From: a virus
Virus record (IMG/VR): IMGVR_UViG_3300017755_000010
Coordinates: 1-46,518 of that record
DNA: 46,518 nt
Strand: one strand, 5' to 3'
Position numbers and translations under genes: made by a program. Under the pieces are notes generated by a model that saw only the letters and a list, made by a program, of their open reading frames with translations, was not told where the DNA came from and searched no databases. Of this stretch, positions 25,467-45,453 are shown in pieces. How positions within the stretch are numbered: the first letter of the stretch is position 1; each line of letters opens with the position of its first letter.

Positions 25467-26222
25467 ATGATATTTAAAAAAGAAGGCAAAAAAATAATCG
25501 AGTTTAAGACCGATGTCGCAGGTCTTCATAAAGTTGCACCCGTAAAGCCTGCTAGCTACTTTATTCCACAGTGGTTTAAAGATATGTCAGACTTTATAGA
25601 AATGCCTGGCAATAACGATAAGCCACCAAATTACTTTGGTAAAGTAGGCGATACAGCAAAAAAATTACATGGCGGAACTGTTAAAAGGTGTCCTGCTATT
25701 ATTGACTTGATTTCTGGAGGTTACATTATTCCTATGTGGTCTGACTTTCTACTACAGAATGATGGAACTTTATTAGAGTGGGATAATAAAAACTTTCCTT
25801 ATGGTATTGAGTTTCATAATAATTCACAAATATACAATTGGAAACTAGATAAAAAAGATTTTAAAGAAGGAGTTAAATTTTCTAACCCTTGGAGAATATA
25901 TACACCACCTGGGTATTCTGTTATGTTTTTAGCTCCTTATTATCAATTTGAAAAAAGATTTACAGTATTGTCAGGAATAGTTGAAACTGACTCTTATCAT
26001 GCTATTAACTTTCCAACATTGATACATACTCAAAAAGACATAATTATAGAAAGAGGAACACCTTTTATACAAGTAATTCCTTTTAAAAGAGATGACTTTA
26101 TATTAGATGTTGGTGAAATGTCTGATGAACAAATGAAAACAGACAAAGAACATAAATTACATTTATCTACAAAATTTAAGAACGCATACCGTTCAATTAC
26201 CTCTAGTTTCAATAACTCATAG
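25467..26222 (+). CDS. ETDSxH family protein, copy 1 (DUF6065-like)
   Basis: The 251-aa protein belongs to a family with two further clear copies in this window (41370 and 43496). Shared blocks in order are VKRCPAIIDLISGGYIIPMW, a hydrophobic and acidic stretch, VKFSNPWRIYTPPGYSV, GIVETDSYHAINFP, and RGTPFIQVIPFKRD. The order of PPGY, G[IV][IV]ETD and G-x-P-x-x-x-x-P-x-x-R recalls DUF6065 proteins, whose function I do not know. Likely functional residues are E, D and H of ETDSYH. This copy sits alone among fibre genes, 5 kb after the hub, which hints at a link with the virion (inference). No signal peptide or membrane segment is visible. Confidence 0.75.
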   Translation: MIFKKEGKKIIEFKTDVAGLHKVAPVKPASYFIPQWFKDMSDFIEMPGNNDKPPNYFGKVGDTAKKLHGGTVKRCPAIIDLISGGYIIPMWSDFLLQNDGTLLEWDNKNFPYGIEFHNNSQIYNWKLDKKDFKEGVKFSNPWRIYTPPGYSVMFLAPYYQFEKRFTVLSGIVETDSYHAINFPTLIHTQKDIIIERGTPFIQVIPFKRDDFILDVGEMSDEQMKTDKEHKLHLSTKFKNAYRSITSSFNNS

Positions 26223-34372: not shown

Positions 34373-34569
34373 TGGAAGTATTTATAGCTTTTATATCAGG
34401 TTTTGCAATAGGTTGGGCTAGTTCATGGTTAGTAAAAATGCTACCTTTTTTAAAAGACACAGAGGAAGAAGAGTTAGATTATAATATGATTGAAAAGTCT
34501 GTGGGAGAATTTGTAAATAGCAAGTACGACCCTGAGAACTATTTTAGTCATGGAGAAGGAACTAAGTAA
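34372..34569 (+). CDS. Small single-pass membrane protein
   Basis: The 65-aa product has one N-terminal hydrophobic segment (FIAFISGFAIGWASSWLV, residues 4-21) followed by KMLPFLKD and an acidic, soluble C-terminus. It overlaps both neighbours. It could be a holin-like or spanin-like lysis factor, since no other lysis gene is evident, but one short segment is weak support. Its place among fibre genes also allows a membrane-anchoring role. Confidence 0.6.
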   Translation: MEVFIAFISGFAIGWASSWLVKMLPFLKDTEEEELDYNMIEKSVGEFVNSKYDPENYFSHGEGTK

Positions 34570-35027
34570 TGGCGACAAGACAACATCTTATTAGAGTAGC
34601 TACCACAGCAGGTGGAGACTCAAATGGTTTATCTGAATTTATAGCTGGTTCAGCTGATGGTGGACCATTAATACCTGCATACACAGATACAGAAAGAGAC
34701 GCAATCACCACAGCTACTGAAGGTATGATTATATACAACAGTACTGATGACCGTCTACAAGTTAGAACTGCAAGCTCTTGGTTATCAATGGACATTGGTG
34801 ACATTGTTGGTGTTACCACTGATGCATTATCAGGTATATCTGGAGGTGCAGGTTCTGGTGCAGTAGATTTAAACATAGATGCAACAAGACTTACAGACGG
34901 AACATCAATTGATGTGGATGAAGACAACGATTTAGTAATGTTATACGACAATTCCGCTAGTGCAATGGTTAAAGTGAAAGCTCAACAGCTACACACAACA
35001 GAAGCACTTCAGTGGATGGGACTATAA
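34569..35027 (+). CDS. Fibre-associated structural protein
   Basis: The 152-aa protein has phrases shared with other phage fibre and receptor-related proteins: YTDTERDAITTATEGMIIYN followed by STDDRLQVRTASSWLSMD. In many phage genomes this T-E-G-M-x-[IV]-Y-N-x-x-x-x-[KR]-L-x-x-[RY]-x-x-x-x-W pattern marks the neck of tail fibres. Residues about 90-152 are a separate beta section ending in QLHTTEALQWMGL. It overlaps the upstream gene and is followed 9 nt later by another small structural gene. Confidence 0.65.
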   Translation: MATRQHLIRVATTAGGDSNGLSEFIAGSADGGPLIPAYTDTERDAITTATEGMIIYNSTDDRLQVRTASSWLSMDIGDIVGVTTDALSGISGGAGSGAVDLNIDATRLTDGTSIDVDEDNDLVMLYDNSASAMVKVKAQQLHTTEALQWMGL

Positions 35028-35036
35028 GGAGAATAA

Positions 35037-35366
35037 ATGGCAATATATACAGCAGCAGAACTTGCAGAAGTAACTGCACTTGGAACATCTGAAGCACAAG
35101 TATTCAGTAATTCTAATAAGTGTATTATTAAGCAAATCTTGCTAGCGAACTATACAGCAACTGATAGAACAGTAGAAGTCAAAGTTATTCCTACAGGGGA
35201 TACAACTGGTGACCAACATATTATTTTTGGTGATACAACTGTTCAAGCAAACACAACTACAGTTATTGACTTAGCTATGGTTGTACCTGCTTCAGCATCA
35301 ATAGCTGCAAAATGTTCAGCAGCAACATCTGTTAATATTCATGTTTCTGGCGTAGAGGTTACCTAA
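35037..35366 (+). CDS. Small beta-rich structural protein
   Basis: The 109-aa protein is beta-rich. KCIIKQILLANYTATDRTVE and TTVIDLAMVVPASASIAAKC match the pattern of small phage proteins that form a jelly-roll-like sandwich (head decoration or baseplate accessory type). Function is unknown. Start ATG 35037 has AAGGAG upstream, and the stop overlaps the next start (TAATG). Confidence 0.6.
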   Translation: MAIYTAAELAEVTALGTSEAQVFSNSNKCIIKQILLANYTATDRTVEVKVIPTGDTTGDQHIIFGDTTVQANTTTVIDLAMVVPASASIAAKCSAATSVNIHVSGVEVT

Positions 35367-36718
35367 TGCCAATCATCGAACCAGACCCAATCTTTTTAGA
35401 TAGGCTTGGTGGGGACGAAATCTACGGATTTGGTCAAGATGGTAATGTTACAATTGCTGCCGACACCAGTCTTGCTAGAGATATGTTCTACAATGACCTA
35501 ACAATTAATTCAAGTTGTACTTTAGATACAAATGGATATCGTGTGTTCGTTAGAGGTACTTTAACTTTTACAGATGCTTCTTCCCGTATTGGAAGATTTA
35601 CTAATAAAACTACAGTAGGAACTCTTAAAGGTGGTTTTACTAAAGGTACAGCAGCAACTGATACACTAGGTGGTAAATCTGGTTCACAAGCTCAAAATAC
35701 ACATGATGCTAATCAATTCTTTGCTGGAGAAAATGAAATGTTTAACTTATCAGCAGCAATTGTTGGAAGAATGTTTGATGCAGCAGCTGAAGCATATAAA
35801 TTCGTAGGTGGTGGTTCAGGTGGAGGACAAGGTGCTGTTAATAATAATGCTAATGCAGGAACAGATGGTTCAGATACTAATTGGGCTGACTATCAAACTG
35901 TAGGTCAACCAGGTGGTAGAGGTGCAGATGGTAATGCAGCTTCTGCTGGTTCTGGAGCAGAAGGTGGTGGAGTTGTAATAGTCGTAGCTAAAACTGTTGT
36001 TGGTGATGGAACAATAAGAGCTGACGGAGATGATTCAAGTGCTTCAGTACAAGGTTCAGATGGTGCAGCCGCCCCAGACGCACAAACACCAGGAAATAAC
36101 TATTCATATGGTTATAGCTATGGGTATTCATACGGATACTCTTATGGCTATTCATATGGATATTCTTACGGTTATAGTTATTCAGGTAATAACTACTCAT
36201 ACTCAGGTAACAACTATTCATATACAAGTAACTATTCTTATAGTGGTTCTAATCCTCACACACATTATCACTGGCATCCAGTAACAATTAATAACTGGTC
36301 AACAGGTAGTTACCATTATCACTATGCACATTCACATCCTTATACAAACTATGGTTCAAATACTAACTATGGTTCTAACCCTACAAACTACGGTTCAAAC
36401 CCTACTAACTACGGTTCTAATTATGGTGCAAACTATGGTGCAAACTATGGAAATAACAATGCTAATAATACTGAAAACAATAATGAATCAAACCCTACTA
36501 ACTATCATCCAGGTGGTGCTGGTGGTTCAGGTGGTGCCTCTTCAGAAGCTTATAACGCAGGTGGAGGAACAGTTCTTTTTGTAACTGGTACAAAACCACT
36601 TCCAGGAAGTTTAACTTTATCAGCAGCAGCTGGAACTGGTGGAGCTGGAACGTCTGGCTCAGGAACAGTAGTAACAGTATTTAATATAGACGCAGACGAC
36701 ACAGACCCAGGAGCTTAA
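35366..36718 (+). CDS. Glycine/tyrosine-repeat appendage protein
   Basis: The 450-aa protein has three parts. Residues 1-240 are a beta-helix-like domain (FGQDGNVTIAADTSLARDM, GYRVFVRGTLTF, GGGVVIVVAKTVVGDGTI). This domain is shared with the downstream 221-aa protein. Residues 246-293 are six YGYS units flanked by YS and SGNNYS units. Residues about 296-385 are His/Tyr/Asn-rich (HTHYHWH, HYHYAHSHPY, then repeated NYGSN). A Gly-rich end (GAGGSGGASS, VVTVFNIDADDTD) closes the protein. It is probably an extended or adhesive virion appendage (inference). The repeat codons vary synonymously, so the peptide pattern appears selected. Confidence 0.7.
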   Translation: MPIIEPDPIFLDRLGGDEIYGFGQDGNVTIAADTSLARDMFYNDLTINSSCTLDTNGYRVFVRGTLTFTDASSRIGRFTNKTTVGTLKGGFTKGTAATDTLGGKSGSQAQNTHDANQFFAGENEMFNLSAAIVGRMFDAAAEAYKFVGGGSGGGQGAVNNNANAGTDGSDTNWADYQTVGQPGGRGADGNAASAGSGAEGGGVVIVVAKTVVGDGTIRADGDDSSASVQGSDGAAAPDAQTPGNNYSYGYSYGYSYGYSYGYSYGYSYGYSYSGNNYSYSGNNYSYTSNYSYSGSNPHTHYHWHPVTINNWSTGSYHYHYAHSHPYTNYGSNTNYGSNPTNYGSNPTNYGSNYGANYGANYGNNNANNTENNNESNPTNYHPGGAGGSGGASSEAYNAGGGTVLFVTGTKPLPGSLTLSAAAGTGGAGTSGSGTVVTVFNIDADDTDPGA

Positions 36719-36719
36719 T

Positions 36720-37385
36720 ATGCCAATAACAGAATACGGTGATGGTGCAGTACCTTCAGACTTTGAAACATTCGATGTAATACCTGACAGTATTTATGGT
36801 TCAGGGATGGATGGTAATGTAACTATCTCAACTAATACAACTCTCGCTAGAGATATGTACTATAACAATTTAACAATAAACCCAGGAATAGTTTTAGATA
36901 CAGCAGGATATAGAGTATTTGTAAGAAATAATCTAGCTATGGCTGCAACATCAACTAATCAAGGAGATACCAAAATAGGTAGAGTTGGTGGAGTATCCAC
37001 AACAGGAACTTTAAAAGGTGGTGGTCAAGCAGCAGTGATTGATTCTCTTGGAGGAAATGGTAACGGTTATACTGCTACTGCTCCAACAGAAGGTGCAGAT
37101 TATTTTAATCATCCTGATATTGCAGTTGATGGAGTTATACAACATGGTGGTTCAACTACACCTACAGCTTTAAATGGTGGTGCAGGAGATAGTGTTAACT
37201 ATGGTGGAGGAATTGTAGTTCTTTGTGCTAGAAAAATACAAGGTTATGGAACAATAGAAGCTAGTGGTGAAACAACTACTGGTGGTGGAGTTATATTTAT
37301 AGTTTCACAAGATATTCCACTAACAGGAGTATTAACAGACGTAACAGGATACGCTTCAGGTACCGTCAAGACATTTAAGGTTTAA
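36720..37385 (+). CDS. Beta-helix appendage protein, short paralogue
   Basis: The 221-aa protein aligns with both ends of the preceding 450-aa protein (GMDGNVTISTNTTLARDMYY, GYRVFVRNNLAM, GGGIVVLCARKIQGYGTIEA) but lacks the Tyr- and His-rich insert. It ends in GTVKTFKV where the longer one ends in GTVVTVFN. Adjacent paralogues of this kind suggest duplication and gain or loss of the repeat insert. It is presumed structural. The start lies 1 nt after the previous stop. Confidence 0.7.
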   Translation: MPITEYGDGAVPSDFETFDVIPDSIYGSGMDGNVTISTNTTLARDMYYNNLTINPGIVLDTAGYRVFVRNNLAMAATSTNQGDTKIGRVGGVSTTGTLKGGGQAAVIDSLGGNGNGYTATAPTEGADYFNHPDIAVDGVIQHGGSTTPTALNGGAGDSVNYGGGIVVLCARKIQGYGTIEASGETTTGGGVIFIVSQDIPLTGVLTDVTGYASGTVKTFKV

Positions 37386-37386
37386 C

Positions 37387-38265
37387 ATGGCTATTGTAAG
37401 AGTCTATTACGATAGAGAAGATGGAAATCAGTCTGAATATGACTTATGGCATTTTAAAGGATATTTTAATCCAGATGAATCTCATGACGATTTATCAATA
37501 CCCTTTTTTCCAAGAACTAAAGTATCTTTTGGAAGTAATGAATACGTAGACATAGATACAGGTTCAGATTATAAATTTTCATTTTTCATAAAAAGAAAAG
37601 ACGGAGATTTTGATTACAACCAAGAACACTGTGAATATGGAGAACTAACTTGTGGTTCAACATGTACCTTCTGTTATGAAATAGGATACCAGTGGAATAT
37701 TGATACCAACATAGCTCCTCATACTAACTTTTATATAAAAAATACTTCACCCTACATATATACCTCATCTGATTACACAGATATTTATGCAACAGGTACT
37801 GCATTCATAGGTGAAGAAGATGAAGGTGATGGAGAAGATGGTGTTGGAGTAGAAGACGATTATATAAGAATATTTTTCAGCTTATCGGAATATAAAGATG
37901 TTTATATACCAGAATCTGAAAGATGGGCTCAAAAGTATCTTCCATGGAGTGAGTTTTGGAAAAACGACATACCTAGAGTTCAAATGCTATACTTAATAAA
38001 TAAATCTTATACCGTAGGAGAAAATGATATGAACTTATCAATAGATGCTGATGCATTAGCTATTGAAAAAGCAGACGCAAAGCAAACATTAGAAAAAGCT
38101 ATTGCTAACTGCTTATTTAAATTAGGCGAAGATGTAGATGCTTTTGATGAAGACGCTTTTCTTGCTGATGTAGATGCTTACAAAGCTACTAAAAATGAAG
38201 TCCATGAAGTTGTCATAGACTATCTAAAAGAGTCGCTTGAAGCACATGCAGCAATTAGCAGTTAA
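37387..38265 (+). CDS. Unknown protein with Cys-rich centre and helical end
   Basis: I do not recognise this 292-aa protein. The N-terminal 150 residues are aromatic and beta-rich (KFSFFIKRKDGDFDY) with a Cys cluster (EHCEYGELTCGSTCTFCYE, residues about 81-99) that might bind a metal. An acidic loop (EEDEGDGEDGVGVEDD, about 139-155) follows. Residues 210-292 are helical (ALAIEKADAKQTLEKAIANC, EVHEVVIDYLKESLEAHAAI). It is the last gene before the accessory module, separated from it by 19 nt. Structural or assembly roles are both possible. Confidence 0.65.
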   Translation: MAIVRVYYDREDGNQSEYDLWHFKGYFNPDESHDDLSIPFFPRTKVSFGSNEYVDIDTGSDYKFSFFIKRKDGDFDYNQEHCEYGELTCGSTCTFCYEIGYQWNIDTNIAPHTNFYIKNTSPYIYTSSDYTDIYATGTAFIGEEDEGDGEDGVGVEDDYIRIFFSLSEYKDVYIPESERWAQKYLPWSEFWKNDIPRVQMLYLINKSYTVGENDMNLSIDADALAIEKADAKQTLEKAIANCLFKLGEDVDAFDEDAFLADVDAYKATKNEVHEVVIDYLKESLEAHAAISS

Positions 38266-38284
38266 TTTAATTTGGGAGGAATAG

Positions 38285-38758
38285 ATGAGGAGAGTATACT
38301 ACGTACCCGAAAGTCTTGATATTGAGGACTTTAAGTCAGAATGGGAACATAATACTAACGAAGTCCATCATGGGATATTTCCTAATATAGAACAATACGT
38401 AGAAAGTCCAGATGAAGCTGGTTGGTTATTTATACCTGAGTTTCAAGAAATGCATGCTCCCGCAAATGAAAGCGATGCTTCTTATTTTCAAATTGCTTAT
38501 GTAGATGACTTTGCTGATAGAAAAAACTTACCTCAATATGTACTAGAAGTGTGGACTAAGAACTTAGATAAGCCTTCCGAATCTCAGAATATACACGCAA
38601 CTCACATACTTCAATATGATGTAGGAGCAGGTTTCTTTCATACTGAGCATATAAGATTACCTATTGGTTGGTATGATTTAGTTTTGAAATTAGAAGATAC
38701 AGAAATACAAACAAAAGAAATATCTATATATGAGGCACCACCGAGTGAAGAAGAATAA
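38285..38758 (+). CDS. Unknown small protein, first gene of the modification module
   Basis: The 157-aa protein opens the module. Its GGGAGGA ribosome site (38274-38280) is stronger than most here, which may indicate re-initiation. It is acidic (EDFKSEWEHN, QEMHAPANESDASYF) with scattered aromatic residues and an HI(L)-Y-D beta section (ATHILQYDVGAGFFHTEHIR). No known motif is visible. Its end overlaps the start of the first oxygenase. Confidence 0.6.
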   Translation: MRRVYYVPESLDIEDFKSEWEHNTNEVHHGIFPNIEQYVESPDEAGWLFIPEFQEMHAPANESDASYFQIAYVDDFADRKNLPQYVLEVWTKNLDKPSESQNIHATHILQYDVGAGFFHTEHIRLPIGWYDLVLKLEDTEIQTKEISIYEAPPSEEE

Positions 38759-39461
38759 TCTTTGGCGTAGAGTAAAACCAATAGAGGTAGTTAAAGGCGT
38801 TTGGTCTTGGGAAAACTGCTTAGATGTACCAGAAGGTGTCATCGATACAATGAATAAAGAAGTTGACGCTTGGGTACCTACTGTTACTGAACAAGACATT
38901 AAACAAAAAAATGCAAAATCCTCTGTAGCTTTAGCAAATGGACCTATTAGATTTTCACCTGAAAACGATTTTAAACACGAAGATTCAAAAACCTTTTTAA
39001 AATATTGTCAAAAAAATGTTTTAGATAAAATTGCAGATTACTTTGATATGTTTGAAGAAGTCTCAAGAGAAGTGAATTGGATGGAAAATTGGCAGTATAT
39101 AACATACAGACCACCTAAACACATGACTTACCATAGTGACAATCACTCTGTAAGAAATCCTAATACAAATCAAAACTATCCTGCACCATACTTTAGAAGA
39201 ATAACTGCTCTAACTTACTTGAATGATGATTTTGATGGAGGAGCTTTAAGTTTTAGATATTTTCCTGAAGTAGACCCTTACAAACCACCAGCTGGTAGTG
39301 TAGTTATTATGCCAAGTTCATATATGTGGTCACATGCAACTACGCCTCTTTTAAATGGTAGGAAAGCAGCTTTTCTTGTGTCATGTGCTTCACATTACGA
39401 TATTGCAAGTTTAGAAGAAGGTGCAGATATAGAAGACATACAGAGAAGGGAAATACGATGA
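38730..39461 (+). CDS. 2-oxoglutarate-Fe(II) dioxygenase (prolyl 4-hydroxylase-like)
   Basis: The 243-aa protein has the double-stranded beta-helix signature of 2OG-Fe(II) oxygenases. The iron triad is H135-x-D137 (TYHSDNHS) with distal H202 (MWSHATTPLLNGRKAAF), and R211 is placed to bind 2-oxoglutarate. YFRRITALTYLNDDFDGGAL with PAGSVVIMPSSY is the P4H-like core. The substrate cannot be read from sequence. Peptidyl proline hydroxylation is one possibility. ATG 38730 gives the longest form. GTG 38745, with GAGG 9 nt upstream, is a possible true start. It overlaps the upstream gene, and its stop overlaps the next start (ATGA). Confidence 0.85.
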   Translation: MRHHRVKKNNLWRRVKPIEVVKGVWSWENCLDVPEGVIDTMNKEVDAWVPTVTEQDIKQKNAKSSVALANGPIRFSPENDFKHEDSKTFLKYCQKNVLDKIADYFDMFEEVSREVNWMENWQYITYRPPKHMTYHSDNHSVRNPNTNQNYPAPYFRRITALTYLNDDFDGGALSFRYFPEVDPYKPPAGSVVIMPSSYMWSHATTPLLNGRKAAFLVSCASHYDIASLEEGADIEDIQRREIR

Positions 39462-40141
39462 ATAATATGGGTGTAGTAGAAATTTATGAAGATTTCTTTT
39501 CAGGAACACAAGCAGAAGAAGTAATAAAAGCAGCAGAAGCTTTAGAGAACAGTCAAATACCTTTAGGTTATGAGAATGCATCTATTGGTAAAGGTCATAA
39601 AGGTGGAGATGTTAGAAGTAATCTATTAATGAATTTATCAGGCATAGCTTCCTTACCTGCTGAATCAAGAGAAGTAAGAGAGGCTGTAAAAGCTGGTAAT
39701 GATGTCTTAATACGAGATATACAACAGATATGCACAATGGTTCAATCTAAACTAGAAGCAGCTGTAAATGAATATACTAAAAAATATGAGTTTCCAATAT
39801 TGTTTGATGAAGGTTTCCAATTACTTAAATATGGTGGTGGACAAGAATATAAACCACACGCTGATTACGCACCACATATACCTAGATACTTATCAGCATT
39901 AATACTTTTAAACCCATCTGAATATGAAGGTGGAGGTACATACTTTGTACATTTTGATGAAATGATAAAACCAGATAAACCAGCTTTAGTATTGTTTCCT
40001 AGTAACTACGCATATGTACACCAAGCAATGCCCGTGGTTCAAGGAACTAAATATGCAATAGTAACATGGCTAGGTCATCCTATGGATTGGGAAGGCATGC
40101 CTCTGCAATACAGGGAAGGTGTTAATAATGAACGCAGTTAA
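39458..40141 (+). CDS. 2-oxoglutarate-Fe(II) dioxygenase (prolyl 4-hydroxylase-like)
   Basis: I start this 227-aa protein at ATG 39458, which overlaps the previous stop as ATGA. The frame is open back to 39383, but that part reads as Cys/Arg-rich shadow of the upstream gene. Motifs are H134-x-D136 (PHADYAP), ALILLNPSEYEGGGTYFVHF, distal H188 (YVHQAMPVVQGTKYAIVTW), and K198 where many P4Hs use Lys to hold 2-oxoglutarate. With the gene upstream it makes a tandem pair of related but clearly different oxygenases. Soluble, no signal peptide. The downstream start overlaps its end. Confidence 0.88.
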   Translation: MNNMGVVEIYEDFFSGTQAEEVIKAAEALENSQIPLGYENASIGKGHKGGDVRSNLLMNLSGIASLPAESREVREAVKAGNDVLIRDIQQICTMVQSKLEAAVNEYTKKYEFPILFDEGFQLLKYGGGQEYKPHADYAPHIPRYLSALILLNPSEYEGGGTYFVHFDEMIKPDKPALVLFPSNYAYVHQAMPVVQGTKYAIVTWLGHPMDWEGMPLQYREGVNNERS

Positions 40142-40682
40142 GTTAAATGAAATATTTAAAGGTAACAAATTAGAAGAAATGAAATATTGGTTGGACAATG
40201 AATCTCCATACTATGAAGACAGTAAATGGAAAGAAAGTCCAGATGGTTCACACATGGTTAAACAATGTAATGAATTAAACATGTATCACAATTCTCTTAT
40301 TGATGTAGCTAGAGAAACTTTTGCAATACATGACCTACTACCTACATTTGCAACTCTTAGCTGGTATGAAGATAGGAAAACAAGTAGTCATCATGACACT
40401 GGTCCTGTTGAACACACCATACTTTATAATTACTTCTCCGAAAATGAACTTGTGTTAGAATACCAAGGACAAGAAATTGTTGTCCAAAATGAAGAGGCAA
40501 TAGCTTACAACGGACAAGAATTTGAACATTATGTTAAAAATAACACTGGATTAAGTTTGTGTTTATATTTTAACTTTGCAAGACCTGATAATTATCACTT
40601 TGTTTTAGGACAACACACAAAACAAGGATATCAATTTCCATCAGGCAGAAGTGAATCAGAGGTGATTAAAGATTGGCTATAG
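40128..40682 (+). CDS. Small 2OG-Fe(II) oxygenase-like protein, family B copy 1
   Basis: I use ATG 40128 (ribosome site AGGGAAGG at 40112-40119), giving 184 aa. The iron-binding set is H88-H-D90 and H134 (FEHYVKNN), and the core has VEHTILYNYFSENELVLEYQ with EEAIAYNGQEFEHY. The protein at 43009 carries H88, D90 and H134 at identical positions, so the two are paralogues. The carboxylate-binding Arg may be in FARPDNY, but the partner has E there, so cosubstrate binding is uncertain. Its stop overlaps a TTG start of the next gene. Confidence 0.75.
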   Translation: MNAVKLNEIFKGNKLEEMKYWLDNESPYYEDSKWKESPDGSHMVKQCNELNMYHNSLIDVARETFAIHDLLPTFATLSWYEDRKTSSHHDTGPVEHTILYNYFSENELVLEYQGQEIVVQNEEAIAYNGQEFEHYVKNNTGLSLCLYFNFARPDNYHFVLGQHTKQGYQFPSGRSESEVIKDWL

Positions 40683-41368
40683 TAAAAAAAGGTTTTAGAT
40701 GCGGTATTACTGCTGATTATGACAACTCAGACAAATTTGAATCAAGAGTAGAAGAACTAGGACATATTAACTCTTCTTTAGAGTTCTGGATATTTAACAA
40801 TGCAGAGACAATAGACGAAGCATTAGTAATAGGTGCAGGATTTGGATTAAACAGTAAACAATTAATTGAGAATGAGGTAACAGTAACTTCATTAGAACCT
40901 AATGATTCTAGGTTTAGTTTACTTGAAGCAAATGCACCAACTGGTACAAATATTAATAAAGCTGCTGGTAGCAGTTCTGGTAATAGTGATTTAGTTTATT
41001 TTGAAGATAATCAATCAAAAGGTTCTATAGATAAAACTATGGGTAATGCAAGCGAATCAGTAGAAGTAGTAACAGTTGATAGCTTAGACTTATCACCAGA
41101 TGTTTTATTTATAAATACAAATGGAACTGAAATAGATGTTTTAAAAGGTGCTACTGATACTATCGCTAATAATTCCGATATGAAAATATGGATTAGATGG
41201 GACACAGATTTACTTGAAGACGTATCTTCCGATATAGAATATTTAAATTCATTAGGAAAAACAATCAAATTAGTACACTGGGAAAAAGTAGGAGATGCTA
41301 TTTCTTACAAGGAAACAAGTGATACAATATTAGAAGCAGTAATTACTGCAGATTTACTACTGGAGTAA
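40673..41368 (+). CDS. FkbM-type SAM methyltransferase
   Basis: The 231-aa protein matches FkbM-family methyltransferases (Methyltransf_21), which often O-methylate sugars. The SAM loop is ALVIGAGFGLN (G54, G56, G58), and acidic E75 in SLEPND follows strand 2. VEVVTVDSLDL and VLFINTNGTEIDVLKGATDT are the family end motifs, in which the usual I-D-[VT]-[ED]-G reads I-N-T-N-G here. The start is TTG 40673 with AGAGGTG 8 nt upstream, overlapping the oxygenase gene. In context, methylation of a decorating sugar or of a hydroxyl made by the oxygenases is plausible (inference). Confidence 0.8.
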   Translation: MAIVKKGFRCGITADYDNSDKFESRVEELGHINSSLEFWIFNNAETIDEALVIGAGFGLNSKQLIENEVTVTSLEPNDSRFSLLEANAPTGTNINKAAGSSSGNSDLVYFEDNQSKGSIDKTMGNASESVEVVTVDSLDLSPDVLFINTNGTEIDVLKGATDTIANNSDMKIWIRWDTDLLEDVSSDIEYLNSLGKTIKLVHWEKVGDAISYKETSDTILEAVITADLLLE

Positions 41369-41369
41369 C

Positions 41370-42182
41370 ATGAAAAAATGGTGGGAGAAAAAAGAATATA
41401 GTAGACTTCTCGAAGTAAAGAAACATAAAGTAGGCGACGAAAAAATACTTTTCTTAACTTCAAGCCCTGAATATGTAGACTTAGCACCCCCTCAAAGAGC
41501 TACTGAGTTCATGCCAGCTTATTATAAGCATTTACAAAGAGAATGGTCAGAAATGAGAGAGCATGATGATAGCTGGAATACTGTCCCATATAAAGACCAC
41601 TCTATGAAAAAATGTCCTACTGTAAAAGACATAATGTTTAGTGGTTACATTATACCTTTGTGGTTAGACTTGAAAATCAATCATGATGACAAAACAGGTT
41701 TCAATTGGTATAACAAACATGCTAATGAAGAAACTATTACTTATCATAAGCCACAATCTATTGGTAACTTACCTATACAAGACGGTTCTTTTAATACAGC
41801 TTTAAAGTTTGCTAATCCTTGGGATATAGTAACACCACCAGGTTGGTCTGTTCTAATTACGCAACCTTGGTATCACAGACATTGGGAAATAGAGATATTC
41901 CCTAGTGTTGTTGAAACTGATAGTTATCATCAAATGAACATACCTTTTCTTTATCATGGAAGAGACGAAAGAATCTTTAGACAAGGAATGCCTTTAATAC
42001 AAGTCATACCTTTTAAGAGAGACGGGTGGGATTTAGGTCAATTTGAATCTCGTAAAATGGATGAAGAAGAAAGAGAGTATTACGCAAAAAGTAGAGCTGG
42101 TGAGAGAACAAGACAAAATGGTTGGTATCGTTGGTTAACTCAGCAAAACAAAAGAAGATGGAAGAAGGATGGAATATTATGA
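41370..42182 (+). CDS. ETDSxH family protein, copy 2 (DUF6065-like)
   Basis: The 270-aa protein shares its blocks with those at 25467 and 43496: MKKCPTVKDIMFSGYIIPLW, LKFANPWDIVTPPGWSVLI, SVVETDSYHQMNIPFLYHG, and RQGMPLIQVIPFKRDGWD. The C-terminus adds a basic helical tail (GERTRQNGWYRWLTQQNKRR). It begins 1 nt after the methyltransferase stop and overlaps the next start as ATGA. The invariant E-T-D-S-[YF]-H block suggests a catalytic or metal site. Function unknown. Confidence 0.75.
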   Translation: MKKWWEKKEYSRLLEVKKHKVGDEKILFLTSSPEYVDLAPPQRATEFMPAYYKHLQREWSEMREHDDSWNTVPYKDHSMKKCPTVKDIMFSGYIIPLWLDLKINHDDKTGFNWYNKHANEETITYHKPQSIGNLPIQDGSFNTALKFANPWDIVTPPGWSVLITQPWYHRHWEIEIFPSVVETDSYHQMNIPFLYHGRDERIFRQGMPLIQVIPFKRDGWDLGQFESRKMDEEEREYYAKSRAGERTRQNGWYRWLTQQNKRRWKKDGIL

Positions 42183-43021
42183 GTAAATGCCCTGTACCAC
42201 ATGGTAAACAGAAAATACCTAGACTAACTGATATATGGTCTAAGAAGTTAAGCACTATTCATAAAGGAATGCCTGAAGTAGCATGGACTTTACCTAGACC
42301 TAATATGGTTTGGGGTGGTTTAGAGAACCAAGAAACAACTACTTATGAAACACCACCAATAAACTTTGAAACACCAAACAAGTTTATAAAAGCTCCTAAT
42401 GGATGTGTATCTACACAGTTTATGCGAAACAGAATGTACGAAGTAAAGTTTCCATGGTCTTATGTAAAGATTAAGTTAGAAGATAATCAGTTTAGTGATG
42501 AAATAGATAGATTTGGTGGATACAAGCATAGTGCTAGTTTTTATGGTGCTGTTAAACATCATGGACCTTTTAATGATGTAATTATGGAAGAAAAAGAAGC
42601 TTGGGGTCACCCTGATAAACCAGTAATGCAAATATCCTTACCAATTATGTTGTTTACTGATGATGAAGAAGTTTGGATGGATGTAATACCTAGTGATAGG
42701 AATACAGGACAAAACTTACCTGTATCTACTATCCCAGGGTTTATGCCTATATACGCATGGTCAAGAGGACTTTCATGGGCTTTTGAATGGACTGACCTAG
42801 AAAACAGAGAACTAAACTTAAACCACGATACTGTAATGTTCAACCTGTTATTTAGCAAGCCTGTAAAAATTAAGTATGTTGAATGGAATGAAACATTCAG
42901 TAAGACTTGGAATCAGATTACACAATCTAGTAAGAACAGACGTGAAACAAATATGCTCTATCCTTTAGCTAAAGAAAGAAGAGCTAAGAAAGTTATGCCA
43001 AAGAAAAAATGGATATTCTAA
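42179..43021 (+). CDS. Unknown protein, possibly distant to the ETDSxH family
   Basis: I start this 280-aa protein at ATG 42179 (ATGA overlap with the previous stop). The open frame extends further upstream but only as shadow of the neighbour. Visible segments are TLPRPNMVWGGLENQ, VKFPWSYVKIKLEDNQFSDE, VMQISLPIMLFTDDEEVWMD, and VMFNLLFSKPVKIKYVEWNE. Layout and aromatic content resemble the ETDSxH proteins on both sides, but that motif is missing, so common ancestry is uncertain. The end is very basic (KERRAKKVMPKKKW). Function unknown. Confidence 0.65.
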   Translation: MSKCPVPHGKQKIPRLTDIWSKKLSTIHKGMPEVAWTLPRPNMVWGGLENQETTTYETPPINFETPNKFIKAPNGCVSTQFMRNRMYEVKFPWSYVKIKLEDNQFSDEIDRFGGYKHSASFYGAVKHHGPFNDVIMEEKEAWGHPDKPVMQISLPIMLFTDDEEVWMDVIPSDRNTGQNLPVSTIPGFMPIYAWSRGLSWAFEWTDLENRELNLNHDTVMFNLLFSKPVKIKYVEWNETFSKTWNQITQSSKNRRETNMLYPLAKERRAKKVMPKKKWIF

Positions 43022-43503
43022 AGTTATCTCCCTTATTTCCAGAGTCTGTCTTTAATAAGTTGAAAGATACTTGTTACAGACAAAAGTATAAATTTCCTTT
43101 TAGTGAAGAGTTTGGTAGATATGGTGCTATTAATCATGATTGGAAAACTTTAAATGTTTACAATGAGATGCTTGTTCCAATGGCTAGAGAAGTATTTAAA
43201 TCAGATACACTTCTACCAAGTTATTCTATGTTTGTTCACTATGAAGGTGAGCATGCTAAGTTACAATCTCATAAAGATAACAATGCCTGCACATACACTA
43301 TTGACCTATGCTTATATCAAAAAGATAATTGGTCTTTATTTGTAGAAGGTAATAAGTATGACTTAGAACCTAATGAAGCACTTTGTTTCTACGGAGAAGA
43401 CCAAGAGCATTGGCGTGAAGATTTTCCTAATCCAGAAACAAATGAAGTAGGTCAAATGTTTTTTCATTTCGTAGAACCTGACCATTGGTTTTTCAATGAA
43501 TAG
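43009..43503 (+). CDS. Small 2OG-Fe(II) oxygenase-like protein, family B copy 2
   Basis: The 164-aa protein is the paralogue of 40128: the iron triad H88-K-D90 and H134 falls at exactly the same residue numbers. Core phrases are FVHYEGEHAKLQSHKDNNAC, LCLYQKDNWSLFVEG, and YDLEPNEALCFYGEDQEHW. The usual 2OG-binding basic residue is not obvious near the end (FHFVEPDHWFF), so the cosubstrate may differ. It overlaps its neighbours by 13 nt upstream and 8 nt downstream. Confidence 0.75.
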   Translation: MDILKLSPLFPESVFNKLKDTCYRQKYKFPFSEEFGRYGAINHDWKTLNVYNEMLVPMAREVFKSDTLLPSYSMFVHYEGEHAKLQSHKDNNACTYTIDLCLYQKDNWSLFVEGNKYDLEPNEALCFYGEDQEHWREDFPNPETNEVGQMFFHFVEPDHWFFNE

Positions 43504-44236
43504 TTTCAAAGGCAACAATATAACTTTTAAAACGCAGATACCTGCTTTAGTAGAATTAGAACCACCAGTACCTGCAAGTCAAATGATACCTGAATGGTTT
43601 CGCAAACTACCAATGGACTTACCTAGACCAGACCATAAGCCGTTTCCTGTGCTTGGTCAAATACTTAAAAAATGGTCTTCGCATACTCTTAAAAAATGTC
43701 CTGCTGTTGTTGATTACTTTGCAGAAGGATACATAATACCACTATGGTCTGACATCTTTATACAAAGACAAGGTGATGAGTTTCATTTTGATACTAATCA
43801 TGGAGACAATGGTATAGGTAGTACTATAGAGTTTCACAATGAAGCACAATTTGCTACTTACCCATTTAAGAGAGGTGATTTAAGAAGAGCTGTTAAATTT
43901 ACAAGTCCTTGGTTTTTCTATACACCACCAGGTTGGTCAATGTTATTCATACCTCCCCTATTAGAAAGAAATGATGACTTCACATTACTACCAGGAATTG
44001 TTGAAACAGATAGTTTTCATCAAGTAAACTTTCCAAGCATATGGCATAGTGAGGGAGATAGAGTTTTACAAAGAGGTACACCTTTCTTACATGTAATACC
44101 ATTTAAAAGAAGTAAACATAAAATAAAAGTTGAAGAGTTTTCAAAACAAGATTACGAATCTAATAGCAAAGAATCTTGGAACTTACGTAGTAAGATGACT
44201 AATGGGTATAGAGAAATTACAAGGAAGAACAGATGA
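43496..44236 (+). CDS. ETDSxH family protein, copy 3 (DUF6065-like)
   Basis: The 246-aa protein is the third clear member of the family: LELEPPVPASQ-type opening (VELEPPVPASQMIPEWFRKL), LKKCPAVVDYFAEGYIIPLW, VKFTSPWFFYTPPGWSMLF, GIVETDSFHQVNFPSIWH, and RGTPFLHVIPFKRS. It starts inside the oxygenase gene and overlaps the ferredoxin gene by 4 nt (ATGA), so oxygenase, ETDSxH protein and ferredoxin are translationally coupled here. Function unknown. The coupling suggests a shared reaction or substrate (inference). Confidence 0.78.
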   Translation: MNSFKGNNITFKTQIPALVELEPPVPASQMIPEWFRKLPMDLPRPDHKPFPVLGQILKKWSSHTLKKCPAVVDYFAEGYIIPLWSDIFIQRQGDEFHFDTNHGDNGIGSTIEFHNEAQFATYPFKRGDLRRAVKFTSPWFFYTPPGWSMLFIPPLLERNDDFTLLPGIVETDSFHQVNFPSIWHSEGDRVLQRGTPFLHVIPFKRSKHKIKVEEFSKQDYESNSKESWNLRSKMTNGYREITRKNR

Positions 44237-44496
44237 AAGTTTGGATAGACCAAGACTTATGTACAGGTGACGGACTATGTGCAGAAATAGCACCAGACAT
44301 CTTTACTATGAAAAATGATGGTCTAGCCTATGTTCAGGAAACTGTTGGAAACTTTGGTGACCTTAAAATATTTAGTTCTATTGATGGCAACGACCAAGGT
44401 GCAGAAGGTTTAGCAAGAGTTCCAGAGGGTGACGAAGATATAGTTACAGAAGCAGCTGAAGAATGCCCAGGAGAATGTATTTTTATAGTACCCTAA
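44233..44496 (+). CDS. Ferredoxin (3Fe-4S or 4Fe-4S, P450-associated type)
   Basis: The 87-aa protein has a single-cluster ferredoxin pattern: DQDLCTGDGLCAEIAPDIF (C10, C16), then NDGLAYV and the end AAEECPGECIFIVP (C78, with an extra C82). C-x5-C plus C-P is the ligand set of the small actinobacterial ferredoxins that feed electrons to cytochrome P450s. There is no P450 in the window. It may therefore serve a host enzyme or one of the unknown ETDSxH proteins coupled to it (inference). The wording MKVWIDQDLCTGDGLC is very close to actinobacterial ferredoxins as I recall them. Confidence 0.85.
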   Translation: MKVWIDQDLCTGDGLCAEIAPDIFTMKNDGLAYVQETVGNFGDLKIFSSIDGNDQGAEGLARVPEGDEDIVTEAAEECPGECIFIVP

Positions 44497-44500
44497 GTGT

Positions 44501-44641
44501 ATGGTTAATAGATACAACTTAGAATGGGAATTAATTAAAAAAAGTCAAGTTACAGACAGAGCACCTCAATCATCAGAAGTTAAAGGTCATATTTATGACT
44601 ATAGTGATTGTGAATGTGGTTGTAAAAAATTCGACAAATAA
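44501..44641 (+). CDS. Mini protein with CxCxC end
   Basis: The 46-aa frame begins ATG 44501, 4 nt after the ferredoxin stop, and ends with YDYSDCECGCKKFDK. The three closely spaced Cys could bind metal. No strong ribosome site is present, but coupling to the ferredoxin gene is possible. It overlaps the end of the convergent minus-strand glycosyltransferase by 43 nt, so one of the two ends may be less constrained. It was found by reading the gap directly. Confidence 0.5.
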   Translation: MVNRYNLEWELIKKSQVTDRAPQSSEVKGHIYDYSDCECGCKKFDK

Positions 44642-45453
44642 ATTTCTTTATCTACAACATTAATTAAATATTCTTTTTCTTCATCAGAAATATAAGCTCC
44701 AATATCAGAACGCTTTCCTCCTTCACCTTCTATGTCTCTTTCATAGAGATGACATATAAGTGGATAATCTACATTAGGTAGTTTCATTTCAAAACTTCTA
44801 TCTTTTAAATTTTTAGTTTGTAAAGGTTCTTCACTCCAAAATATAGATTCTTTATTTAGTCCAGAGTACTTACCCCATTCACTTGTACCAAAAGCAAAGT
44901 TCGCACAGAACTTAGTAGGTATAAAAGGTAGTGAACTAGGTGGAGTAATTGCATGCCAATTAAGTAGCCAATCAACTGGTTCCACTTTTTTGTTGTAAAT
45001 AGGAAGTAAAAAACCTTTTCCCTTAGGTTCTCTGATTCCATTTTTAGATATATAAGCAGGAGCATATCCAGTCAATATAGTTTTATCTGTTTGAGTCTTT
45101 AATAGTCCTATTAAGAGTTCATCCCAATCTTTACAAAACCATGAATGTGCGTCTACCTGTAGTACATAATCTTCACCATCATACATAGATTCTGCCTTGT
45201 GTCGTGCTCTACCTACACCTAAATGAGCTTTATTGAAGGTTTCGAGCTCTAATCTAAAGGATGAGCGTGAACTAAGTCTATCAGTGTAGTCTAATAGTTC
45301 TTGTTTAGCTACGTCAGTTGAGTAATGTAAGTAAACACCAAATACTAATCTTTCTGGATACTTTGCAGACTCTACTGCATTTTCTATAGTGTGAGATAGT
45401 TCTGAATCATCTAAAGAAGCTAATTTTATAAATACCCTTGGATGTGATGTCAT
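44599..45453 (-). CDS. Glycosyltransferase, GT60/GT27-like (GlcNAc-transferase type)
   Basis: The 284-aa minus-strand protein fits the cytosolic GlcNAc-transferase pattern (GT60, as in Skp1 hydroxyproline GlcNAc-transferase). It opens PRVFIKLASLDDSELSHTIE with NAVESAKYPERLVFGVYLH, then LGVGRARHKAESMYDGEDYV, the D101-A-H103 motif in LQVDAHSWF, and KDWDELLIGLL. The D-x-H motif binds metal and the sugar nucleotide in GT27 and GT60. KFCANFAFG and IFWSEEPLQ correspond to the later acceptor part. It is the only minus-strand gene here, with 16 nt between its start and the divergent gene. A leaderless start is possible because no ribosome site is visible. The donor sugar cannot be read from the sequence. 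Confidence 0.75.
   Translation of the reverse strand: MTSHPRVFIKLASLDDSELSHTIENAVESAKYPERLVFGVYLHYSTDVAKQELLDYTDRLSSRSSFRLELETFNKAHLGVGRARHKAESMYDGEDYVLQVDAHSWFCKDWDELLIGLLKTQTDKTILTGYAPAYISKNGIREPKGKGFLLPIYNKKVEPVDWLLNWHAITPPSSLPFIPTKFCANFAFGTSEWGKYSGLNKESIFWSEEPLQTKNLKDRSFEMKLPNVDYPLICHLYERDIEGEGGKRSDIGAYISDEEKEYLINVVDKEIYLSNFLQPHSQSL

Follow-up and report, generated by a model that had tools for sequence, protein, structure and literature searches.

In Dictyostelium, Skp1 is modified by a prolyl hydroxylase and by Gnt1, a glycosyltransferase of family GT60 (PMC3515798). LH3, the multifunctional procollagen lysyl hydroxylase/glycosyltransferase, is a single fused eukaryotic enzyme that hydroxylates and then glycosylates a repetitive trimeric fibre protein, collagen. 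As regards phages, the receptor-binding tip of T4 gp37 is a needle with HxH iron sites (PMC11705849), and published guesses for the Fe(II)/2-oxoglutarate (2OG) oxygenases of cyanophages point to DNA repair and to 2OG/nitrogen signalling (PMC3037559, PMC9146016). In this study, we describe a gene cassette (38285-45453) in the IMG/VR virus record IMGVR_UViG_3300017755_000010, whose whole stretch of 46,518 nucleotides is called the window here. The cassette combines 2OG oxygenases with an FkbM-like methyltransferase, a ferredoxin, proteins that we call ETDS and a GT60-type glycosyltransferase, and it follows the genes of glycine-rich tail proteins, one of which carries a histidine- and tyrosine-rich needle. 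We put at about 0.5 the probability that this late-gene cassette serves to mature the receptor-binding tail proteins of the phage itself, with glycosylation as an optional step.

The record, 46.5 kb long, comes from a marine long-tailed phage and carries genes for head, connector, tape measure and tail; a search for a close isolate phage gave a sole match of 42 bases. Nine large contigs contain no psbA, a gene that would have pointed to a cyanobacterial host. With the Skp1 system the window shares a prolyl-4-hydroxylase-type oxygenase and a PF11397/GT60-type glycosyltransferase, both in one genome region. It differs in that the glycosyltransferase is optional, in that four oxygenases are accompanied by a methyltransferase, a ferredoxin and proteins of predicted dUTPase fold, and in that no Skp1-like substrate was seen. 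In contrast to LH3, to which the oxygenase OXY2 gives a weak PDB match (0.008), the window has separate genes and a glycosyltransferase of another family, and no collagen repeats were seen. A literature search on phage tail hydroxylation gave no relevant match.

A search with ETDS2 yielded 55 related IMG/VR loci, and all window genes were mapped onto these and onto five further loci; the 36 loci that reach from the needle gene through the ferredoxin are the basis of the synteny counts. The needle gene, the second glycine-rich protein, the next two genes, OXY1, OXY2, the FkbM-like gene, ETDS1, ETDS-like, ETDS2 and the ferredoxin stand in this fixed order in every one of the 36, even where OXY2 identity is as low as ~53%, while OXY3 and OXY4 are not universal. 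The grouping of the cassette, syntenic in all spanning viral loci, exceeds chance. The genes are as follows.

35366..36718, + strand: glycine-rich tail protein with putative hairpin needle (amino acids ~237-382), candidate substrate; 36/36 loci
36720..37385, + strand: second glycine-rich tail protein, its N-terminal region shared in sequence with 35366-36718; 36/36 loci
37387..38265, + strand: tail-associated protein, N-terminus weakly PUD-like (Pfam PUD 1.4e-4, just below cut-off); 36/36 loci
38285..38758, + strand: 157-amino-acid protein, first gene of the cassette run, no family match; 36/36 loci
38730..39461, + strand: OXY1, 2OG-Fe(II) oxygenase (2OG-FeII_Oxy_3 4.7e-9); 36/36 loci
39458..40141, + strand: OXY2, prolyl-4-hydroxylase-like 2OG-Fe(II) oxygenase (2OG-FeII_Oxy_3 3e-14; PDB 5hv0 1.5e-8)
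40128..40682, + strand: OXY3, divergent 2OG-oxygenase-like protein (phrog_2954 0.0025; HxD...H); 26/36 loci
40673..41368, + strand: FkbM-like methyltransferase (phrog_8156 7.8e-18; TIGR01444 5.4e-9); 36/36 loci
41370..42182, + strand: ETDS1, DUF6065/phrog_7084-type (phrog_7084 1.2e-53; aligned with ETDS2); 36/36 loci
42179..43021, + strand: ETDS-like protein, predicted dUTPase (beta-clip) fold; 36/36 loci
43009..43503, + strand: OXY4, divergent 2OG-oxygenase-like protein (phrog_2954 3.7e-16; HxD...H); 32/36 loci
43496..44236, + strand: ETDS2, DUF6065/phrog_7084-type, predicted dUTPase (beta-clip) fold (phrog_7084 8.7e-57); 36/36 loci
44233..44496, + strand: single-cluster ferredoxin, final gene of the run (Fer4_15 5.9e-19); 36/36 loci

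An earlier note on this DNA had listed four oxygenases, a methyltransferase, two ETDS genes, a ferredoxin and a glycosyltransferase, and all of them are present in the window where it had placed them. Its description of the genes other than the glycosyltransferase as one overlapping run (38285 to 44496) also holds, adjacent genes overlapping by 4-29 nt with the sole exception of a 1-nt gap (41368/41370). What it missed is that the unbroken run starts at 34569, not at 38285, and takes in the upstream tail proteins. As 34569-44496 is a single gene run with intergenic gaps of <=19 nt, the needle and the enzymes are probably co-expressed.

The family calls of the earlier note for the oxygenases bore out, through Pfam for OXY1 and OXY2 (both above the 2OG-FeII_Oxy_3 cut-off) and through PHROG 2954 and the HxD...H residues for OXY3 and OXY4, which are divergent relatives of one another. 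The iron-binding HxD...H triad is kept in all four: it is invariant across 32 aligned OXY3/OXY4 sequences and, in alignments of 17 homologues each, appears as H135xD137 and H202 in OXY1 and as H134xD136 and H188 in OXY2, together with an invariant basic residue that may bind 2-oxoglutarate (R211 in OXY1, K198 in OXY2); in OXY3 and OXY4 no such residue was identified. OXY2, homologous in sequence to solved prolyl 4-hydroxylases, is the clearest of the four, and peptidyl-proline hydroxylation may be its activity. PHROG families 2954, 3531 and 2297, labelled 'ferrochelatase' or 'DNA endonuclease', match 2OG-oxygenase proteins in the window (38730-43503), and these labels look like annotation carry-over.

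The needle gene lies three genes upstream of the cassette, and the needle itself is a low-complexity stretch at the end of the protein. Its 146 residues include 33 Tyr, 30 Asn, 23 Ser, 18 Gly, 9 Pro and 9 His, arranged as an arm of (GYSY)n/(PGNNYSY)n, a core HTHYHWH..INN..YHYHYAHSH and a second arm of (TNYGSNP)n/(SNYG)n. The histidine core with its HxH motifs is invariant in 21 homologues. Arm lengths run from 44 to 72 residues, with a constant difference of 5 between the two arms (4 in loci L100-102, where the core halves are swapped); over 30 unique pairs the correlation is r = 0.999, and the difference came out constant in none of 10,000 permutations. At a fixed offset, YSY/TNTH motifs of one arm face N[YSF]G motifs of the other, with none alike at 567 opposed positions, against ~41% of like type at the neighbouring offset once arms had been exchanged at random among loci; a stricter within-class permutation gave 57.5 +/- 11.4 exact motif partners, compared with 173 observed. 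The arms exchange motif types between clades, even in mid-arm, and the opposite arm compensates. Arm locking and motif complementarity are strong evidence, drawn from sequence, that the needle forms an antiparallel paired hairpin.

In the databases the needle is found in this lineage only, and each needle locus with sufficient flank also has the cassette; seven contigs matching the core pattern and two matching the arm pattern outside the lineage were set aside as chance matches. What the needle has in common with the tip of T4 gp37 is a likeness of motif, HxH repeated in tandem at the end of a tail fibre (PMC11705849), whereas the Tyr/Asn repeat arms and the in-register YSY/N[YS]G complementarity set the needle apart.

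The two ETDSxH genes of the earlier note, ETDS1 and ETDS2, are confirmed by phrog_7084, and it had missed both a divergent third protein and a further paralogue:

25467..26222, + strand: ETDS3, paralogue among tail genes (phrog_7084 7.5e-71; DUF6065 8.2e-6)

ETDS1, ETDS2 and ETDS3 belong to the sequence family DUF6065/phrog_7084, hitherto without function, for which a literature search on DUF6065 gave no relevant match. Pfam DUF6065 scores in the window (22.0, 24.8 and 25.9) lie under the cut-off of 26.6, which some relatives exceed. A search of the ETDS sequences against the PDB found nothing. The AlphaFold2 model of ETDS2 (predicted local distance difference test score, pLDDT, 77) matches a dUTPase in Foldseek at E 1.7e-4, with a VIA comparison to a dUTPase giving Z 9.3 and a root-mean-square deviation of 3.7 over 129 residues. 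The model of the ETDS-like protein, made independently, is weaker (pLDDT 64; best Foldseek E 8e-3). For both models, all 50 listed matches are of the dUTPase family. ETDS2 and the ETDS-like protein are thus predicted to share a dUTPase-like beta-clip fold, and a fold is thereby predicted for DUF6065/phrog_7084. A third member of the ETDS fold, though a very divergent one, seems to be encoded at 42179-43021; hhalign detected no sequence similarity between this protein and ETDS1/2, and the fold prediction is the only link. By manual comparison, the invariant GIVETDSxHQ would fall at dUTPase motif 3, which we take to be GVIDxDYxG. The dUTPase motif PRSG is absent from the ETDS alignment, and for this reason dUTPase activity is not claimed; Pfam dUTPase (PF00692) likewise had no match in the profile search of the window or in nine related contigs. 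That the ETDS proteins are themselves oxygenases was rejected on the predicted fold, no double-stranded beta-helix being among the listed matches. Three loci have an extra ETDS-type paralogue between ETDS2 and the ferredoxin (L009:10276-10977, L012:10741-11442, L021:10726-11424).

The FkbM-type assignment is supported by phrog_8156, though the scores are slightly under the family cut-offs (TIGR01444, 36.6 against 37.7 bits; Pfam, 18.7 against 22.7). The ferredoxin call of the earlier note stands on its Fer4_15 match, and ferredoxin identity between loci is 67-100%.

The gene on the other strand is less constant:

44599..45453, - strand: GT60-type (PF11397) glycosyltransferase, accessory; DxH motif; 18/57 loci within 2.5 kb

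Its assignment to GT60 is kept, with Pfam GlcNAc (N-acetylglucosamine) family PF11397 matched at E=1.2e-17 and 64.8 bits (cut-off 21) and the DxH residues D101/H103 invariant in 14 homologues; a profile search against the PDB found nothing. Near most cassettes the gene is lacking: it occurs in 10 of 27 contigs and is missing from the other 17, some of them as long as 78 and 82 kb, though the contigs may be fragments, so that absence is no proof. Usually it follows the ferredoxin, in two loci (L036, L041) it lies between ETDS2 and the ferredoxin, inside the operon, and in others it is 7-8 kb off. The gene occurs on either strand, and its identity runs from 26 to 100%. The same slot may hold other cargo, namely a PAPS-reductase-like gene (L033:10987-11871) or an open reading frame that by eye is methyltransferase-like (L012:11789-12397). 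The glycosyltransferase is therefore optional cargo, and the conserved unit consists of the oxygenases, the methyltransferase, the ETDS set and the ferredoxin. That it has repeatedly come to lie within or near the cassette suggests coupling, but not a fixed two-step pathway. The earlier note had named the co-occurrence of oxygenases and glycosyltransferase in relatives as a test of its proposal; the family of the gene stood, and the co-occurrence turned out to be partial, the two being far from constantly together.

Mixtures of ETDS, 2OG oxygenase and methyltransferase or halogenase genes also adjoin other surface-exposed proteins in unrelated genomes. In cyanophage S-RIM44 (101841-111759; L064:5894-13020), an ETDS homologue, four 2OG/JmjC oxygenases and DUF6445 stand directly behind three Gly_rich_2 tail proteins, which themselves follow a structural protein. 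Like that of the window, this cassette has 2OG oxygenases and an ETDS gene immediately after glycine-rich tail proteins; it differs in adding JmjC, DUF6445 and two annotated tryptophan halogenases, one of them confirmed by Pfam, and in that no FkbM, ferredoxin or needle was detected; it may be seen as a parallel cassette with halogenation. Bacterial ETDS homologues were found at two loci only in the genome collection. In the class of Aliikangiella, one of 274 genomes has one, that of Aliikangiella marina, where (L134:6467-13752) it is accompanied by two 2OG oxygenases, one of them sharing 41% identity with OXY2 along part of its sequence, and by two methyltransferases beside a TonB-dependent receptor.

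The favoured reading starts from the enzymes with their intact catalytic residues, from the strict synteny and from the single gene run in which they follow the needle and glycine-rich tail genes. Seven enzyme, ETDS and ferredoxin genes keep a fixed order with the preceding tail-side genes in every spanning locus. The earlier note had suggested the phage's own fibre proteins as a possible target; since the cassette continues the gene run of the needle and glycine-rich proteins, and in all spanning loci comes behind them, the phage's own tail proteins are the likeliest substrate. For the order of steps and the roles of the individual proteins, we infer the following. Up to four oxygenases would hydroxylate side chains of the needle and glycine-rich tail proteins, a proposal made in view of a needle rich in Tyr, Asn, Ser, Gly, Pro and His and of the prolyl-4-hydroxylase-like OXY2. 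The FkbM-like enzyme would then O-methylate some of the new hydroxyls, and the GT60-type enzyme, where present, would put a sugar on a hydroxylated or Ser/Thr site. As for the ferredoxin, the electrons that it supplies might go to a metal centre of the ETDS proteins or serve to keep iron reduced, and the ETDS proteins would employ their dUTPase-like beta-clip fold in a non-dUTPase role. As an outcome, the tail tip might be less recognised by host defence or by decoy molecules, or might bind better. A more detailed version is offered tentatively, as we doubt that it holds in all its parts: that the phage hydroxylates and O-methylates, and optionally glycosylates, its own self-complementary His/Tyr hairpin tip, in which in-register pairing would join YSY to N[YS]G modules of 4 and 7 residues, with partners on a repurposed dUTPase fold and a dedicated ferredoxin as electron source.

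Several points weigh against maturation of the tail proteins. Canonical 2OG oxygenases do not require a ferredoxin, so that the reading does not of itself account for this gene or for the proteins of dUTPase fold. No oxygenase neighbour was detected near the ETDS homologues of halovirus HF1 and Synechococcus phage Sf-CH8, and the tie between ETDS, oxygenases and surface proteins, while it recurs, is not absolute. The needle-cassette loci are all of one viral lineage and are not independent; their adjacency could be inherited, and co-occurrence therefore cannot separate function from inheritance.

Among other explanations, the earlier note had suggested for the module a Skp1-like path: hydroxyproline formed by a prolyl hydroxylase and then capped with GlcNAc by a GT60 enzyme. 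The prolyl-4-hydroxylase-like OXY2 does lie together with a PF11397 glycosyltransferase, and glycosyltransferase genes are met repeatedly within or beside the cassette, at times inside the operon itself; but with their identity, strand and position varying so widely, and with most cassettes having none, this cannot be the conserved function, and we rejected it as the core function and hold it improbable as the purpose of the module. It is also unlikely that the enzymes remodel the host surface or another host target during infection, for example in superinfection exclusion, by hydroxylating, methylating and glycosylating its glycans or outer-membrane proteins. FkbM and glycosyltransferase enzymes often act on sugars, and related genes adjoin the TonB receptor in Aliikangiella; yet the genes of the window sit inside a tail-gene run and not in an early region, and prolyl-4-hydroxylase-like oxygenases act on protein.

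The dUTPase-like predicted fold could instead point to nucleic-acid or nucleotide chemistry, with the oxygenases acting in base hydroxylation or repair and the ETDS proteins binding nucleotides, and the ETDS relatives of HF1 and S-RIM4 do lie beside or near a ribonucleotide reductase. Against this, the oxygenases match protein hydroxylases, the genes are located among tail genes, the ETDS alignment lacks PRSG, and nine large related contigs, which are fragments, contain no thymidylate-synthase-type or dUTPase gene, so that we give this explanation little credence; DNA hypermodification was rejected on the same lack of a thymidylate-synthase-type gene. The genes might, lastly, belong to auxiliary metabolism or to a small-molecule pathway that has nothing to do with virion proteins, or the enzyme folds might be used structurally, for example as trimeric beta-clip proteins in the tail. 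dUTPases are trimeric, like tail fibres, and each genome fragment shows two or three matches to DUF6065; but no recognisable small-molecule pathway neighbour was found, and the strictly kept catalytic residues of all four oxygenases argue for chemistry and against structural use, making this, too, an unlikely account.

Maturation of the phage's own tail proteins would have a bearing beyond this lineage. Many marine phage 2OG oxygenases have no assigned role, and the cassette offers a concrete alternative, namely post-translational maturation of attachment proteins, for which one gene run supplies both the enzymes, as a defined set, and a candidate substrate, a needle whose two arms co-vary nearly as paired strands do.

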